Virus record (IMG/VR): IMGVR_UViG_3300044638_003291
Coordinates: 1 to 28,779 of that record
Direction: 5' to 3' (one strand)
Length of the DNA stretch: 28,779 bases
Source: a virus
Below are positions 6,138 to 27,516 of this stretch, piece after piece. The translations under genes were made by a program, and so were the position numbers. Below the pieces are notes generated by a model that was not told the DNA's origin, searched no databases, and saw only the letters and a program-made list of their open reading frames with translations. Every line of letters starts with the position of its first letter. Within the stretch, counting starts at the first letter, position 1.

Positions 6138-6869
6138 ATGTCAGAAAAAATAATTGAGCTAAGATATTTTGATAAAGAAAACAAGCTTTTCAAAGTAGTA
6201 AATCCAAAAGTAAAAAGAACTTGGATGGATGATACAGAAAATAATGCTTATCGCTGTACACCATTAAATGTTGCAAATACTTACGGGTGGTATGTTTTAT
6301 GCCCTATGGATTTTACGGCAGAGTGGAATGGTGGACCACTAGAGTCTGACCTTGTTGTTACAATAATTAACCCCCCAGAAAGTAACAACGAAGAATCACA
6401 TAAAATTACCGCAACTAATTTTGGTCATGGGATATTAAGTTTTGTTCCAGACTTTATTGTTAGAACAAGCCCTGGAGTTTCTACATATGTTCGTGGGGTT
6501 CCAAACCTAGTTGCAAACGGAATACAACCGCTTGACGGTGTTGTTGAAACTGATTGGCTTGCCTTTACTTTTACATATAACTTTAAGTTTATCAAGCCAG
6601 GAAAAATTAAGTTTGAAAAGGGTCAACCACTATTTAGTTTCTTTCCAGTAGAAAGAGGATACGTTGAACAATTTGAAACTTTGGTTTCGGGAGTTGAAGA
6701 CTATCCAGAATTTAAAAAAGAATATGACAGGTATAGTAATCACAGAGGTATGCAACAAATAGGAGCTACTCAAATAGATGGTCACTATAAAAGAGGAGAG
6801 AGCCCAGTTAAAAAATATGATATTGACAATCATTTAAAGACAAGCAAGATAAAAGAATTTAAGTATTAA
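6138..6869 (+). CDS. DUF6065-like protein, copy 1
   Basis: This 243-residue protein is related to the two proteins at 19992 and 21108. Shared landmarks are a C-x-P-L/I-x-x-x-x-x-x-G-W/Y-x-x-x-x-P-x-D block (here Y-R-C-T-P-L, then G-W-Y-V-L-C-P-M-D-F), a central aromatic region and a G-x-P-L-F-S-F-F-P-V-E-R block near residue 170. This resembles the uncharacterised DUF6065-type family. No catalytic motif is evident and the protein has no signal peptide. Its start has a good AGGAAG site (6129-6134) just after tRNA-Tyr, so it is probably on the same transcript as the tRNAs. It is the most divergent of the three copies and lacks the adjacent IGWxY partner. Confidence 0.75.
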   Translation: MSEKIIELRYFDKENKLFKVVNPKVKRTWMDDTENNAYRCTPLNVANTYGWYVLCPMDFTAEWNGGPLESDLVVTIINPPESNNEESHKITATNFGHGILSFVPDFIVRTSPGVSTYVRGVPNLVANGIQPLDGVVETDWLAFTFTYNFKFIKPGKIKFEKGQPLFSFFPVERGYVEQFETLVSGVEDYPEFKKEYDRYSNHRGMQQIGATQIDGHYKRGESPVKKYDIDNHLKTSKIKEFKY

Positions 6870-17709: not shown

Positions 17710-18387
17710 GTGGGACTTAATAAACTAAACCACCTTTACTCTACTGAGCCATTAACAGTAGATTCTTTACTAGCTAACAATGACGTAACCGTATTAGATG
17801 ACGTTAATGTATTCGGAGAAACCCTTGTTGATGGATTGCTTGGACAGCCAAACCAAGTACTTAAAGTTAATTCTGCTGGAACTACAATTGAATGGGCTAC
17901 CCTAGATGCTCTTCCATCACAGTCTTCAAATTCAGGTAAATACCTAACAACTGATGGAACCACTGCTTCATGGGCAACAATTACACTGAGCAACTATGCT
18001 CTTTTGGCTGCTCCATCTTTTACTGGAACAGTATATTCTGCTGGAAATGTTGTCTCACATATTGATACAAATGCTCCAACTCTAAATTCTGGAAACACTT
18101 ATAAGTATACGTTAGTTTTAGCAGATGACGGTAAGATGATTGAAATGAATACCACTACTGGAGTGGGCAACACCCTAGAAATCCCCTTAAACTCATCTGT
18201 AGCCTATCCAATAGGCACTCAAATATCAGTGCTTCAAACTGGTGCTGGACAAACAACAGTCTCTGGAGCAGTTGGTGTGACCGTAAACGCTACTCCTGGA
18301 GCTAAACTAAGAGCACAATGGTCTGCTGCAAGTTTAGTAAAAAGAGCCACCAATACTTGGGCTTTAATTGGAGATTTGACGGTATAA
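17710..18387 (+). CDS. Tail fibre-like structural protein, 225 aa
   Basis: GTG 17710 follows TAGGAGG (17698-17704). The N-terminal half has fibre-like motifs shared with the 1169-residue protein (L-L-A-A-P-S-F-T-G-T-V, preceded by L-T-T-D-G-T-T-A-S-W-A). The C-terminal half ends in G-T-Q-I-S-V-L-Q-T-G-A-G-Q, K-L-R-A-Q-W-S-A-A and N-T-W-A-L-I-G-D-L, a pattern I associate with the C-terminal domain of many phage tail proteins. It is probably a short fibre or a tip protein that assembles with its neighbours. Confidence 0.78.
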   Translation: MGLNKLNHLYSTEPLTVDSLLANNDVTVLDDVNVFGETLVDGLLGQPNQVLKVNSAGTTIEWATLDALPSQSSNSGKYLTTDGTTASWATITLSNYALLAAPSFTGTVYSAGNVVSHIDTNAPTLNSGNTYKYTLVLADDGKMIEMNTTTGVGNTLEIPLNSSVAYPIGTQISVLQTGAGQTTVSGAVGVTVNATPGAKLRAQWSAASLVKRATNTWALIGDLTV

Positions 18388-18390
18388 ACT

Positions 18391-19704
18391 ATGTTCCTGT
18401 TTAAAAATTTATCAACAATTGCATCATCAGTCCGTAATGTATTCGTAGATAATTTTAATAGATCTGATGATGGAACTTCTTTAGGAAAAGCAACGGACGG
18501 AAGTCGTTGGAATGCCCTTAGTGGAGTATTTACTATTTTTGGAAATAAAGCCAAAGCAACTTCTGCAGCCAGTACATACCCAATTGCATCTATTTCAATG
18601 CCAGACTCCCCCCTTGACCAAGACGTAGTTATTACTTTAAAAGGAACTACTCCTGGAACAGGTGCAGCCCTTTGGATTTCAGATAATAATAACTGGTGGG
18701 CAGTTGTAACAGGAATTGATAATGGAGAAAATTGCGACTGCGATATTTGTCAAGTCTGTAATGCAGGAAACTGTACCACTGGATACTGTTCCACTAATGG
18801 AAACTGTATTGCTGGAAATTGCCAAGCAGGTCAAACCCAAAATTACAATGCCGCATATGTCAACGCACCAGTTCCGTATGACGGCTGGTTTACGGGAAGT
18901 TATAACTTTGGATCTCCAGGGGGTTTCAACCCAACAACTGGAGGAAATCCAAATAACTATAACTGTAATGCTTGGAATACAGGAAACTGTAATTCTGGTT
19001 CTCCCTGTTCACAACTTGGCGAACCAGTTCAAACTGGTGGAGGAAACTGTAGGGCTTGGAAAAATACCAATCCAAATAGATTTTCTTGTCAAGCCTGGAA
19101 CACCAGAAACTTTTCTCGTCCCTGTGCAGCATGGCAATGTGATAGAACAGGAAACAGGTTCTGCAGATCATCAAGTGTTGCTAACTGGAATCCCGTTGGT
19201 GGGGGAAATGCAAAACCAAGAGTTGATCAAAACCCAATTTTTAATTCACCAGGAACCAATCCAGGCAACCCAGTTGCATCATCGCCAACTGGTGCGTTTA
19301 ATCCTTGTACTGGTGGTTACTGTTCTGGTGCATACAACTGTGCAGCATATACTTGCACCGCTTACTCATGCACAACTTTTAGCACTGTTAGTTGCAACTG
19401 CAGTACCTGTTTCCCAGCATATGTTAGAGTTATAAAGTCTGTTGCAGGAACTGTTTCGGAATTAACTAGGTGGGTAGTTTCTGCCCTTGGAACATCAACC
19501 GTAAACTCAATGCAAATAACTACAAGCGGTTCTGAGATAACAATTAAGCCTTATGCAAATGCAGACCTTACATCCCAAATTGGAAGCGATTTAGTATATA
19601 CTCCAGTAGGGGTTGCACTTACGTCATATTATGGTATAATTGTATCACCGTCCCCTACAAGCCAAGGGTATGAAATAGATGAAATTACTATTGAGAAGAT
19701 TTAA
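18391..19704 (+). CDS. LamG-like virion protein with a 24-Cys insert, 437 aa
   Basis: Residues about 18-112 (D-N-F-N-R-S-D-D-G-T-S-L-G, S-R-W-N-A-L-S-G-V-F, A-L-W-I-S-D-N-N-N-W-W-A-V-V-T-G) read like the first half of a concanavalin-type/LamG jelly roll, as in phage minor tail proteins. The second half seems to resume at about residue 342 (A-Y-V-R-V-I-K-S-V-A-G-T-V, then I-T-T-S-G-S-E-I-T-I-K). Between them, residues 115-340 are rich in Gly, Asn, Ser and Cys. All 24 cysteines of the protein lie here, many as N-C, C-x-A-W-N-T or C-x-A-Y-x-C units. The even number suggests disulfides on the virion surface or metal binding. Translation signals before ATG 18391 are weak. Probable role: receptor binding. 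Confidence 0.75.
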   Translation: MFLFKNLSTIASSVRNVFVDNFNRSDDGTSLGKATDGSRWNALSGVFTIFGNKAKATSAASTYPIASISMPDSPLDQDVVITLKGTTPGTGAALWISDNNNWWAVVTGIDNGENCDCDICQVCNAGNCTTGYCSTNGNCIAGNCQAGQTQNYNAAYVNAPVPYDGWFTGSYNFGSPGGFNPTTGGNPNNYNCNAWNTGNCNSGSPCSQLGEPVQTGGGNCRAWKNTNPNRFSCQAWNTRNFSRPCAAWQCDRTGNRFCRSSSVANWNPVGGGNAKPRVDQNPIFNSPGTNPGNPVASSPTGAFNPCTGGYCSGAYNCAAYTCTAYSCTTFSTVSCNCSTCFPAYVRVIKSVAGTVSELTRWVVSALGTSTVNSMQITTSGSEITIKPYANADLTSQIGSDLVYTPVGVALTSYYGIIVSPSPTSQGYEIDEITIEKI

Positions 19705-19714
19705 AGGATAAAAA

Positions 19715-19975
19715 ATGTTAGACGAAAAACCACCTGAGTTAAAACCACCCTACCCAGAAAAAGAACCTACTCCATTTTATGTGGCAACTATTGTAGACAA
19801 TATTGTTTATCAAGCTCAAAATCTTGATGGTCAACAAGCAGCTTTGCTTTTATCTCAGCCAACCTATGTTAGATACAATCCTGGAGAAGCTCAAATTGGT
19901 TGGAAGTATGACCCAGAAACAAAAACTTTTACAAGACCAGCCTACGATCCAGAAACTGACACGTTTTCTTACTAG
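19715..19975 (+). CDS. IGWxY fibre-associated protein, cassette A
   Basis: The 86-residue protein has an AAAGGAT site before ATG 19715. After a Pro/Glu-rich start, residues 20-75 show F-Y-V-A-T-I-V-D-N-I-V, A-A-L-L-L-S-Q-P-T-Y-V and I-G-W-K-Y-D-P-E-T-K-T-F-T-R-P. The same order occurs in the protein at 20681, and I-G-W-x-Y-x-x-x-x-F-x-x-P segments are common in small proteins beside phage fibre genes. Some of these are fibre assembly helpers or small fibre parts. It is paired with the DUF6065-like gene at 19992. Confidence 0.7.
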   Translation: MLDEKPPELKPPYPEKEPTPFYVATIVDNIVYQAQNLDGQQAALLLSQPTYVRYNPGEAQIGWKYDPETKTFTRPAYDPETDTFSY

Positions 19976-19991
19976 AGAGATTTAATAAAAA

Positions 19992-20681
19992 ATGAAATTT
20001 ATTCGCTTTACATGTGAAGATAAAACTTATCCCCTTAATGTACCTGTTCCTGCAAAAAAAATGATTCCGCAATGGTATAAAGATGGAGAAACTTTTTATG
20101 TAGAAAAAGGTAGCAGGGAAACCAGTGCTGGTTTAAAAACTTGTATGCCATTTTTAGATATTCTTACAGCAGGGTATTTTCTTGTAACCCCATTTGACAT
20201 TTATGTGGGAAAAAAAGAAGATGGGTCTCTGAGCATTGAGTGGAACTCTCCAGAGCCATGGAAAGATTTTGTAAATCAAAGACCGCAAGGATCTGGTGCA
20301 ACCATTCCAAGACCTGCAGGTCACAGAGACGAGCATTTTGTTTGGTCAAATAAATGGGGCTGGAAAACACCTAGAGGATATAGTACCATTGTTACTCACC
20401 CATTCAATAGATTTGATCTGCCATTTACAACAATGTCTGGGTTCATGGACTCAGATAAAATTTCAGTCAATGGGAACGTCCCATTCTTTTTAAAAGAAGG
20501 ATTCTATGGGTTGATTCCAGAGGGAACACCATATGCACAGGTCATTCCAGTAAAAAGAAAACTTTGGAAAATGATTCATAGTCCTGAAAATGTTGACATA
20601 GTTATACAACAATCTGCAAAAATTCATGGAGAAAAAGCATATTATAAGAAAAAAGCTTGGGTTAGAAAGGAATACAACTAA
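19992..20681 (+). CDS. DUF6065-like protein, copy 2 (cassette A)
   Basis: The 229-residue protein is clearly related to that at 21108. Shared blocks are K-T-C-M-P-F-L-D-I-L-T-A-G-Y-F-L-V-T-P-F-D-I near the start, G-W-K-T-P-R-G-Y-S-T in the middle, H-P-F-N-R-F-D-L-P-F and S-G-F-M-D-S-D, and near the end G-T-P-Y-A-Q-V-I-P-V-K-R. The W/P-rich pattern suggests a compact beta fold, but no catalytic residues can be named. It resembles the uncharacterised DUF6065-type family. The overlap of one base with the next IGWxY gene shows close coupling. Confidence 0.75.
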   Translation: MKFIRFTCEDKTYPLNVPVPAKKMIPQWYKDGETFYVEKGSRETSAGLKTCMPFLDILTAGYFLVTPFDIYVGKKEDGSLSIEWNSPEPWKDFVNQRPQGSGATIPRPAGHRDEHFVWSNKWGWKTPRGYSTIVTHPFNRFDLPFTTMSGFMDSDKISVNGNVPFFLKEGFYGLIPEGTPYAQVIPVKRKLWKMIHSPENVDIVIQQSAKIHGEKAYYKKKAWVRKEYN

Positions 20682-21107: not shown

Positions 21108-21767
21108 ATGACTAATAAAATTACTTTTACTAGCGTTTATCCAGAGTTTCAATTACCTCATCCAATTCCAGCAAGTAAGGGAGTCCCAGAGTGGTGGAGA
21201 AAAGAGTCAAATGTTGGAGACAAGGTATTCACAATGAAAAGGTGTGTTCCGATCCTAGACTCTTTAACTGCTGGATATTTAATAACGCTTCCAGTAGATG
21301 TTCATAAAAAAAACGATGATGAACATTTCTGGGAACTACGTCACCCCTCTTTTGTTTCTGAGCACTACGCCCGTCAAACTGAAGCCTATCCGTTAGGTGA
21401 AGAGTGGAACCCTCAGCCATACAAATGGACAAACCCCTGGAAGATTCAAACACCAAAAGGATATAGTTGTTTGTTTGTACATCCACTAAACTCAGGAGAT
21501 AGTCCATTTCATTCTTTCTCTGGAATAGTGGATACAGATAAACATCCAGTTACAATTAACTTTCCATTTGTAATTAAAAAGGATTTTAATGGAACAATTC
21601 ATGCAGGAACACCTATTATTCAAGTCATCCCATTTAGAAGAGAAGCTTGGGAAAGTAAAATAATAGACGATAAAGAATTTATTGAGGATCGCAATTTTTA
21701 TAAAATGTTTAATCCTCCATATGCCATATACAAAAAAAATTGGTGGACAAAGAAAGAGTTTAGATAA
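21108..21767 (+). CDS. DUF6065-like protein, copy 3 (cassette B)
   Basis: The 219-residue protein parallels copy 2 block by block: R-C-V-P-I-L-D-S-L-T-A-G-Y-L-I-T-L-P-V-D-V, I-Q-T-P-K-G-Y-S, H-P-L-N-S-G-D-S-P-F, S-G-I-V-D-T-D, and A-G-T-P-I-I-Q-V-I-P-F-R-R-E-A-W. GAGGT lies just before ATG 21108. It overlaps the methyltransferase start by one base. Two related copies next to each other, each behind an IGWxY gene, indicate a duplication of the pair. The function is unknown. Confidence 0.75.
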   Translation: MTNKITFTSVYPEFQLPHPIPASKGVPEWWRKESNVGDKVFTMKRCVPILDSLTAGYLITLPVDVHKKNDDEHFWELRHPSFVSEHYARQTEAYPLGEEWNPQPYKWTNPWKIQTPKGYSCLFVHPLNSGDSPFHSFSGIVDTDKHPVTINFPFVIKKDFNGTIHAGTPIIQVIPFRREAWESKIIDDKEFIEDRNFYKMFNPPYAIYKKNWWTKKEFR

Positions 21768-25734: not shown

Positions 25735-26637
25735 ATGAAGAAAAGTATTATTGCCATTATTGGATTAGCTTTACTTTTAGTTATGGTAGGAACCTCAGCA
25801 AAGGGAAATACCAAGCCTACTATCGCTGTAATTGATACAGGAATTGATGCTACCCATAGCCTAGTATCTGGAAGAATTGTACATGAAGTGTGCGTTCTTG
25901 ACTTTAAATCTTGCCCTAATGGACAAAACTTTATGGAAGGTGCTGGAGCAGCAACCCTGGATCCATTAAGGGCTAGTAAAAATGGATTCTATCATGGAAC
26001 TCAGATTGCTTCTGTAATAACTCAAAGCAATCCTAACGTAAACCTTGTAGTTATTAGAATTGTTCCAATGACAGAAAAGGGATCTAGGGCAAGTACCTCG
26101 CTAACTGCTGTACAAAGAGCACTAGAATGGGTAGATAAAAATCATCAAACATACAACATAGTTGCAGTAAACATGAGCCAATCATACTCCTCAAAGGTAG
26201 GTTGCACGAAGCACATCCCCATTGAGAGTGTAATTAGTTCTCTTGCTTCAAAGAATATTCCATCCTTTTTCCCTACGGGAAATGGATATAACTATTCTAA
26301 GATTGATTTTCCTGCATGTGTTACTTCATCTATATCTGTAGGAGCCACCGATCCATCATATGGGGGTCAAATGTCTCCAGCCTTGTATAGTAACAACTCT
26401 TTGGACACAGACTTTTTTGCACTAGGTACAATGTTTGCTGCATCGCCTAACAATAAGACTGCTAATTCCGTTGGAACTTCAAACTCTAGTGCACTTCTGG
26501 CAGCAAAATGGGTAGCAGTAAAAGAACTAAACCCTGCCTTGTCAATGTCACAGGTATATGATAGAATTAAATCCCAAACAAGATACCTTGAACACAAGCG
26601 TTCAGGAAAAATGTTCATTGTTGATTTAGTTAATTAG
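25735..26637 (+). CDS. Secreted subtilisin-like serine protease (S8)
   Basis: The 300-residue protein has a signal peptide (M-K-K-S-I-I-A-I-I-G-L-A-L-L-L, cleavage likely near residue 22) and then the S8 domain begins at once. The triad is A-V-I-D-T-G-I-D (D34), F-Y-H-G-T-Q-I-A (H87) and S-V-G-T-S-N-S-S-A-L (S249); N183 in P-T-G-N-G fits the oxyanion Asn. The last motif differs from the usual G-T-S-M-A-x-P in having N-S-S-A-L. No I9 propeptide is visible, unlike most secreted subtilases, although the protein could fold with calcium or a host factor. Its role in a phage is unclear: it may process virion or host surface proteins, or be carried for superinfection exclusion. Confidence 0.88.
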   Translation: MKKSIIAIIGLALLLVMVGTSAKGNTKPTIAVIDTGIDATHSLVSGRIVHEVCVLDFKSCPNGQNFMEGAGAATLDPLRASKNGFYHGTQIASVITQSNPNVNLVVIRIVPMTEKGSRASTSLTAVQRALEWVDKNHQTYNIVAVNMSQSYSSKVGCTKHIPIESVISSLASKNIPSFFPTGNGYNYSKIDFPACVTSSISVGATDPSYGGQMSPALYSNNSLDTDFFALGTMFAASPNNKTANSVGTSNSSALLAAKWVAVKELNPALSMSQVYDRIKSQTRYLEHKRSGKMFIVDLVN

Positions 26638-27023: not shown

Positions 27024-27233
27024 ATGTTAATTACAAATTATGAATACGCAGACAAAATTGTTAATCAAAACAAAAGTCTTTCTTGGGAAGGCTGGGACAT
27101 CCTTGAAATAACCCCTAGCCACAATGCAGAGTTTAATAAAGAAGGAAAGATTATTGATGGAAATTGGGCGTTTGTAAAAACCTACCAGCTTACAGAAAAG
27201 GGCTGGGAGGTTCCTAAAAAATATGTTAGATGA
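27024..27233 (+). CDS. Conserved phage hypothetical protein, 69 aa
   Basis: TGAGGA precedes ATG 27024. The protein has L-S-W-E-G-W-D-I, a central I-D-G-N-W-A-F-V block and K-G-W-E-V-P-K at the end. I recall related small proteins from actinophages and cyanophages with a W-x-G-W-D and G-W-x-x-P pattern, none with known function. It overlaps WhiB by 11 bases. Confidence 0.7.
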   Translation: MLITNYEYADKIVNQNKSLSWEGWDILEITPSHNAEFNKEGKIIDGNWAFVKTYQLTEKGWEVPKKYVR

Positions 27234-27516
27234 AGAGTGGGTAGTAAAAGCTAATTGCAGGGCAACAGATAAAGATTACTTCTTTGAAAAATACGAAGAA
27301 GATCAGGCTGTGGCTGTTGTTGTAGACAATATCTGTCTTACCTGTCCAGTAATTATAGATTGCTTTAATCATGGCACGACCAATGGTGAATGGGGAGTGT
27401 GGGGTGGTGTATACTTAGTTGATGGAGAAATTAATGCAATTAAAAATGCACATAAGACTCCAGAAATCTGGAAGGAATTACTGGCAGCAGTAGGAACTGA
27501 CGATGAAGTATACTAA
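27223..27516 (+). CDS. whiB: WhiB-family iron-sulfur transcription regulator
   Basis: The 97-residue protein has four conserved cysteines (C12, C38, C41, C47) in the WhiB order C...C-x-x-C-x5-C, preceded by D-x-x-Y-F-F, and the G-V-W-G-G turn at residues 58-62. The Wbl family is confined to Actinobacteria and their phages; it binds a 4Fe-4S cluster and acts with the primary sigma factor. Phage WhiB proteins can repress host genes or block superinfection (as for WhiBTM4). GGGAGG stands upstream of ATG 27223. The basic C-terminal DNA-binding tail is short here, so it may act mainly through sigma. Confidence 0.93.
   Translation: MLDEEWVVKANCRATDKDYFFEKYEEDQAVAVVVDNICLTCPVIIDCFNHGTTNGEWGVWGGVYLVDGEINAIKNAHKTPEIWKELLAAVGTDDEVY

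Follow-up and report, generated by a model that had tools for sequence, protein, structure and literature searches.

Gene organization of the locus

The window analyzed here, the whole 28,779-nt stretch of the viral record IMGVR_UViG_3300044638_003291, contains an open reading frame at 18391-19704 encoding a protein of 437 aa. Its 24 cysteines are all located at residues 115-340, with none elsewhere, as had been stated in a sequence-only reading of this DNA. The features of this protein and of the two genes next to it lie on the plus strand. The N-terminal half of a predicted lectin-like (jelly-roll) domain is encoded at 18391..18726 (residues 1-112), and its end carries the family signature W[IV]xDxxNW[WF][AG]V. 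The C-terminal half, with the pattern Y[IV]R.I.S..[GN].V..., is encoded at 19414..19701 (residues 342-437). Both halves are free of Cys, consist of AlphaFold2-predicted strands and are kept in relatives, 54 of them for the N-terminal half.

The region between the halves (18727..19413, residues 113-341) is a Cys-rich insert with all 24 Cys and abundant Gly, Asn, Ser, Thr and Ala, which we propose to be a hypervariable disulfide-locked knob on a beta stalk. It opens with one CxCxxC motif (CDCDIC, 18733..18750, residues 115-120) and closes with another (CNCSTC, 19393..19410, residues 335-340), located on the predicted ascending and descending strands of the stalk, respectively. Alignment revealed a core motif of the insert, C-D-R-T-G-N-R-F-C (19138..19164, residues 250-258), which is also present in heptad-repeat relatives as CDVVGNRFC and CNVTGNRYC. 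The CxAWNT and CxAYxC repeats reported earlier were found at residues 192-200, 233-238 and 317-327. All 24 Cys, including those of both CxCxxC motifs, are invariant in an alignment of five close homologues, and members of the window's subgroup share 57-63% identity in the insert versus 84-86% in the flanks. Family-wide, the insert extends over residues ~106-345 in window numbering, slightly wider than the 115-340 first stated, because the stalk strands count as part of it.

The gene ending 3 nt upstream (17710..18387) encodes a fibre protein, assigned by synteny and by its match to a PHROG minor tail protein (E 3.1e-17). Its C-terminal domain (~18094-18384) is found immediately upstream of most members of the family. 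The upstream ORF could be read in 51 members, and in ~48 of these it encodes a tail protein; the gene thus directly follows a fibre gene whose distal domain is conserved, the position anticipated for a fibre-tip adhesin. The gap between the two genes ranges from -4 to +23 nt and is mostly -4 to +7 nt. These tail proteins mostly end in the shared domain ...G.T.N..PG.KLRAQWS.A.L.K...W.L.GdL; a few (L063, L070 and L100) have a different ending. The shared domain was also found in 251 records of cultured phages, mostly Gordonia phages, and a different protein follows it in each of the five such phages examined (four Gordonia, one Brevundimonas). The same fibre domain followed by differing proteins is consistent with a general module for docking at the fibre tip, on which tip proteins can be exchanged. 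In the Gordonia phages (L131, L132, L134 and L135), a tip-like protein of ~198 aa is encoded after the fibre domain, with no obvious resemblance to the family by eye.

A small protein of 86 aa is encoded downstream (19715..19975). Its gene is conserved in third place behind those of fibre and adhesin, both in the window's clade and in several other clades, and the protein is a possible assembly partner. Genes matching PHROG phrog_7084 are present at 6138-6869 and 19992-20681, the former also matching Pfam DUF6065 (E 3e-60). The gene at 21108-21767 resembles both by eye, and similar genes lie directly downstream of the adhesin gene in several relatives. The window also encodes a secreted-looking subtilase (25735-26637; Peptidase_S8, E 1e-15) and a WhiB-family protein (27223-27516; Pfam E 2e-11). 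WhiB proteins are actinobacterial in distribution, and the phage host is therefore probably an actinobacterium.

The protein family and the variation of its inserts

Relatives were obtained with the C-flank alone as query; they have 40-42% identity and the closing motif CNCxTC[FY]P in common, and their inserts are completely different. The family was collected from IMG/VR with degenerate DNA patterns for CNCxTC[FY]P and for the N-flank W[IV]xDxxNW[FWC][AG]V. Chance pattern matches, such as L023, L032 and L083, were left out. A total of 54 distinct proteins with a complete insert were recovered, of which four lack part of the C-flank or run up to the edge of a contig or locus. The insertion site is identical in all of them, directly after NW[WF][AG]V, and the Cys-rich region is internal throughout, which bears out the earlier view of it as an insert and not a protein end. 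The inserts range from 67 to 358 aa and contain 6 to 32 Cys; among the members with a short insert are L117 (252 aa, 8 Cys) and L101 (276 aa, 6 Cys). The CxCxxC motif is present at the start of the insert in 19 members and at its end in 18, and many members have single Cys evenly spaced every 5, 7 or 12 residues and no CxxC pairs.

Screening of 84,980 bacterial and archaeal genomes with the N-flank pattern returned nine matches only, all in unrelated frames, so the family looks phage-only at the sensitivity of this search. INPHARED gave no match either by tblastn with the window protein (P0001), L019, L088 and the concatenated flank pairs of ~14 members, or by blastn, and we found no description of the family in the literature. 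It is an uncharacterised family of phage proteins.

Wherever two members share at least 70% identity in the flanks, the insert is less conserved than the flanks, often with a change in length. In L025 and L026, whose flanks are 97% identical, the heptads GSPSYPC and GGYYYAC are swapped at two sites with the Cys spacing nearly intact. Faster divergence and module swapping make the insert a hypervariable region on a conserved scaffold, as anticipated for the exposed part of a fibre-tip adhesin. Synonymous divergence (pS) between L031 and L039 reaches 0.44 in the insert against 0.10 in the flanks, as expected if recombination brings in foreign inserts. Insert dN/dS was below 1 in the pairs measured and thus lends no support to per-site positive selection. 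The inserts consist of 11.9% Tyr, 11.0% Cys, 11.2% Gly, 11.2% Ser, 12.0% Thr and 9.5% Asn, a composition that resembles that of binding loops. Several phages encode a pair of family members. Two such pairs combine a paralogue with 24-26 Cys and a paralogue whose insert, at the same site, is Cys-free, ~200 aa long and composed of Tyr/Thr/Ser/Gly repeats. These Cys-free paralogues, L235 and L237, are second copies in the genomes of L019 and L021.

Based upon these data, we consider it likely that the gene product is a tail-fibre-tip adhesin presenting a hypervariable disulfide-locked knob, where the bonds, the knob shape, the docking and the receptor binding are predicted. Judging from gene position and variability, the loop probably grips the host cell. 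A different role, as structural spacer or decoration without host contact, would reduce the disulfides to stabilisers and the variation to neutral repeat turnover. This would agree with the low dN/dS, with the growth and contraction of 5-, 7- and 12-residue repeats, and with gene order being the sole indicator of the fibre-tip location. We nevertheless regard it as unlikely in view of the binding-loop composition (Tyr 12%, Cys 11%, Gly, Ser and Thr 11-12% each), the conserved flanks next to a fibre gene, the raised synonymous divergence, which suggests exchange of whole inserts, and the very different inserts in paralogues of one phage. As adhesins, the family members would be candidate host-range determinants in many uncultured phages.

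Cysteine numbers and the predicted pairing of cysteines

A total of 1000 Cys were counted in the 54 proteins, read from the chosen start Met, and all 1000 are inside the inserts with none in the flanks. The number of Cys per insert is even in every one of the 54, the even number across variants anticipated for a disulfide-rich knob, while other frequent residues have even counts in about half. An even count had been put forward earlier from the window protein as a sign of a disulfide-locked or metal-bound knob; this argument is weak from one protein and becomes strong because all 54 are even. Even numbers also hold in all 29 clusters formed at 70% flank identity. On a tree built from the flanks only, which also took in L220 (22 Cys), L236 (14 Cys) and the two Cys-free paralogues, there are at least 31 changes in the number of Cys, each ending at an even number. 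If each of 31 changes could freely be odd, the chance of no odd outcome would be ~2^-31. No odd count was seen, even though, in families where each repeat of 5 or 7 residues carries one Cys, gaining or losing a single repeat would make the count odd.

The Cys counts leave a remainder of 0 modulo 4 in 28 members and of 2 in 26, and His accounts for only 0.3% of insert residues. Counts that are always even and about equally 0 or 2 modulo 4 are strong evidence, at the level of sequence comparison, for pairwise disulfides over four-Cys metal sites, with bond formation itself predicted. The perfect rule makes this a rare case in which comparative counting alone strongly supports disulfide pairing in a virus protein without known structure. 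As a candidate, the four-Cys metal-binding domain of zinc-ribbon or iron-sulfur type was rejected, the Cys not coming in sets of four (26 of the 54 counts leave a remainder of 2).

More broadly, the insert Cys might bind zinc or iron-sulfur and so stabilise the loop, with CxCxxC or CxxC as ligands. The CxCxxC motifs on both insert edges in 18-19 of the 54 members could be read in this way, virion proteins from a reducing cytoplasm could take up metal, and metal-bound fibre tips are known, as in T4 gp37. The near equality of the two modulo-4 classes (26 vs 28), the near lack of His, and the single Cys every 5, 7 or 12 residues instead of CxxC pairs in many members all speak against metal, which we hold to be improbable. 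Of the two states proposed earlier for the knob, the disulfide-locked one is thus upheld and the metal-bound one is not.

A point against the disulfide-locked knob is that the cytoplasm, where phage proteins are synthesised, is reducing, and therefore the bonds would need assistance or would have to await lysis. This raises the question of how and when such a protein oxidises up to 32 Cys. The thioredoxin gene of the window had been tentatively linked to the Cys-rich protein. However, a conserved thioredoxin near the family gene was not found across 24 family contigs; the enzyme is encoded in five of them and close to the family gene only in the window's clade. The link is therefore not supported, and thioredoxin is no general partner.

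Predicted fold of the flanks and comparison with known systems

The window protein was modelled by AlphaFold2 from an alignment of 28 family sequences. The flanks (residues 14-126 and 326-437) are mostly predicted with pLDDT of ~85-96, a range reached in the N-terminal half from residue ~20, and the C-terminal half with ~88-95, whereas residues 127-325 fall below 50 and leave the insert unmodelled. Strands at 113-115, 118-123, 330-335 and 338-340 indicate that flank strands run into the insert through both CxCxxC motifs, as a stalk. A heptad-repeat relative modelled from 15 sequences gave a mean pLDDT of 28. For the window protein, the confident prediction of both flanks and a pTM that reaches 0.54 even with 212 low-confidence residues in the chain fit a single domain interrupted by the insert. 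A Foldseek search against viral models found a viral protein of 213 aa whose alignment bridges the gap and covers the two flanks (prob 1.00, TM 0.58 on target). It has the size of the flanks minus the insert, and the insert's absence is read from this length.

It could still be supposed that each flank is a domain of its own, with the Cys region as a linker, the packing of the halves having been judged from pLDDT and pTM. This is very unlikely given a pTM of 0.54 with half of the chain unmodelled, a pLDDT above 85 in both flanks, and the 213-aa protein aligning to both across the gap. The proposal that two halves of one domain flank the Cys region therefore agrees with the whole-protein prediction, which gave no result against it. 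The 213-aa protein also answers in part, by its length, the suggestion to look for the same fold without the insert; junction-spanning and NYY patterns in IMG/VR yielded no insert-free members by HMM.

A fold search of the PDB gave ConA-like-class lectins (VIP36, arcelin, legume lectins and galectin) and a mycobacteriophage central fibre as best matches, all weak; the lectins have prob up to 0.89, but E of 0.08 or worse and, for most, TM on target of ~0.3 or less. Within the PDB, the modelled flanks thus match best, though weakly, the class of ConA-like or L-type lectins and LamG jelly-roll domains. Neither the window protein nor the joined flanks of ten relatives matched Pfam LamG, Laminin_G or lectin families with E up to 1, and the window protein had no Pfam, PHROG or PDB-sequence match. 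The earlier label LamG-like appears right only as a fold class. We know of no ConA-like or LamG domain with a large Cys insert. Strong full-length matches came from five uncharacterised proteins of uncultured Caudovirales in UniProt/BFVD (A0A6J7WYT9, A0A6J5RDN1, A0A6J5KM36, A0A6J7WRS3 and A0A6J5MLT4), unnamed and undescribed, which have the same fold over their full length; A0A6J7WYT9 is 59% identical to the window protein.

The common insertion site, the confinement and even number of Cys, an insert that diverges faster than the flanks, the pairing with a fibre gene and a single confident fold for the flanks were established by computation, and the adhesin may be pictured as follows. The two conserved halves would fold into one lectin-like beta domain that caps the tail fibre by docking on the conserved C-terminal domain of the fibre protein encoded just upstream. 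The insert of 67-358 residues would exit between two adjacent strands on a beta stalk, clamped in many members by CxCxxC on each side, and end in a knob rich in Tyr, Gly, Ser, Thr and Asn and cross-linked by pairwise disulfides. Contact with the host would be made by the variable surface of this knob. Its repeat modules may expand, shrink and move between phages, and selection would keep the number of Cys even, leaving none unpaired. If true, viruses of environmental bacteria possess a natural repertoire of disulfide-stabilised binding knobs, and these naturally selected scaffolds would be usable for binder design.

The ultralong CDR H3 of cow antibodies (IGHD8-2) appears to be the closest functional parallel. 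It is a disulfide-bonded knob on a beta-ribbon stalk out of a beta-sandwich, to which we liken the predicted phage knob, and both are repetitive, rich in Cys, Tyr, Gly and Ser, and variable in Cys number. The cow loop is composed of stalk and knob and changes its length by deletion (PMC5994613). Cow heavy chains have even Cys totals in 84% (PMC7366855), compared with 54 of 54 in the phage family. The peptide of the IGHD8-2 D segment, SCPDGYSYGYGCGYGYGCSGYDC (PMC7366855), looks similar to the insert segment CTGYGCTGYGCTAYGC of L067, a resemblance presumably due to convergence; no homology is claimed. Unlike the cow loops, the phage inserts are longer (up to 358 aa and 32 Cys), are directly genome-encoded, diversify in the course of phage generations and are carried by a lectin-like fold. 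We give an even chance to the view that phages independently evolved the solution of cow antibodies, in the form of a large fibre-tip family with a lectin fold, hypervariable Tyr/Gly/Ser-rich disulfide knobs, module exchange, strict Cys pairing and bonds formed outside the cytoplasm.

In T-even phages (T2, S16 and PP01), gp38 is a small tip protein encoded directly downstream of the distal fibre gene, and its hypervariable segments set host range. The hypervariable loops of gp38 are on Gly-rich segments without a Cys pattern, which differs from the phage family. One report places PP01 gp38 at the fibre tip (PMC12892980). The family is similar to gp38 in having a small tip-protein gene just downstream of the fibre gene and hypervariable segments, and PHROG, Pfam and PDB sequence searches detected no homology between them.

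Targets of diversity-generating retroelements also show a variable region in a phage tip protein, and hypervariable Tyr/Asn/Ser/Gly-rich residues might suggest one here; however, this origin is hardly credible, with Cys positions fixed within subfamilies, variation by modules that alter length instead of point changes in a fixed frame, and no reverse transcriptase found among 24 contigs of the family, which include fragments; the positive control of this search gave a signal in three of 14 cellular genomes.

Two further observations concern the structure of the genes. In the related contigs L035 (~1017-2120) and L046 (reverse strand), the frame is broken inside the insert and the two halves are still open. 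A second, Cys-free insertion (TGLSST.GL..GQ.I.AT.GTGSL...) is present in the N-terminal half, at residues ~75-175, only in the subfamily of L019, L021, L022 and L028.
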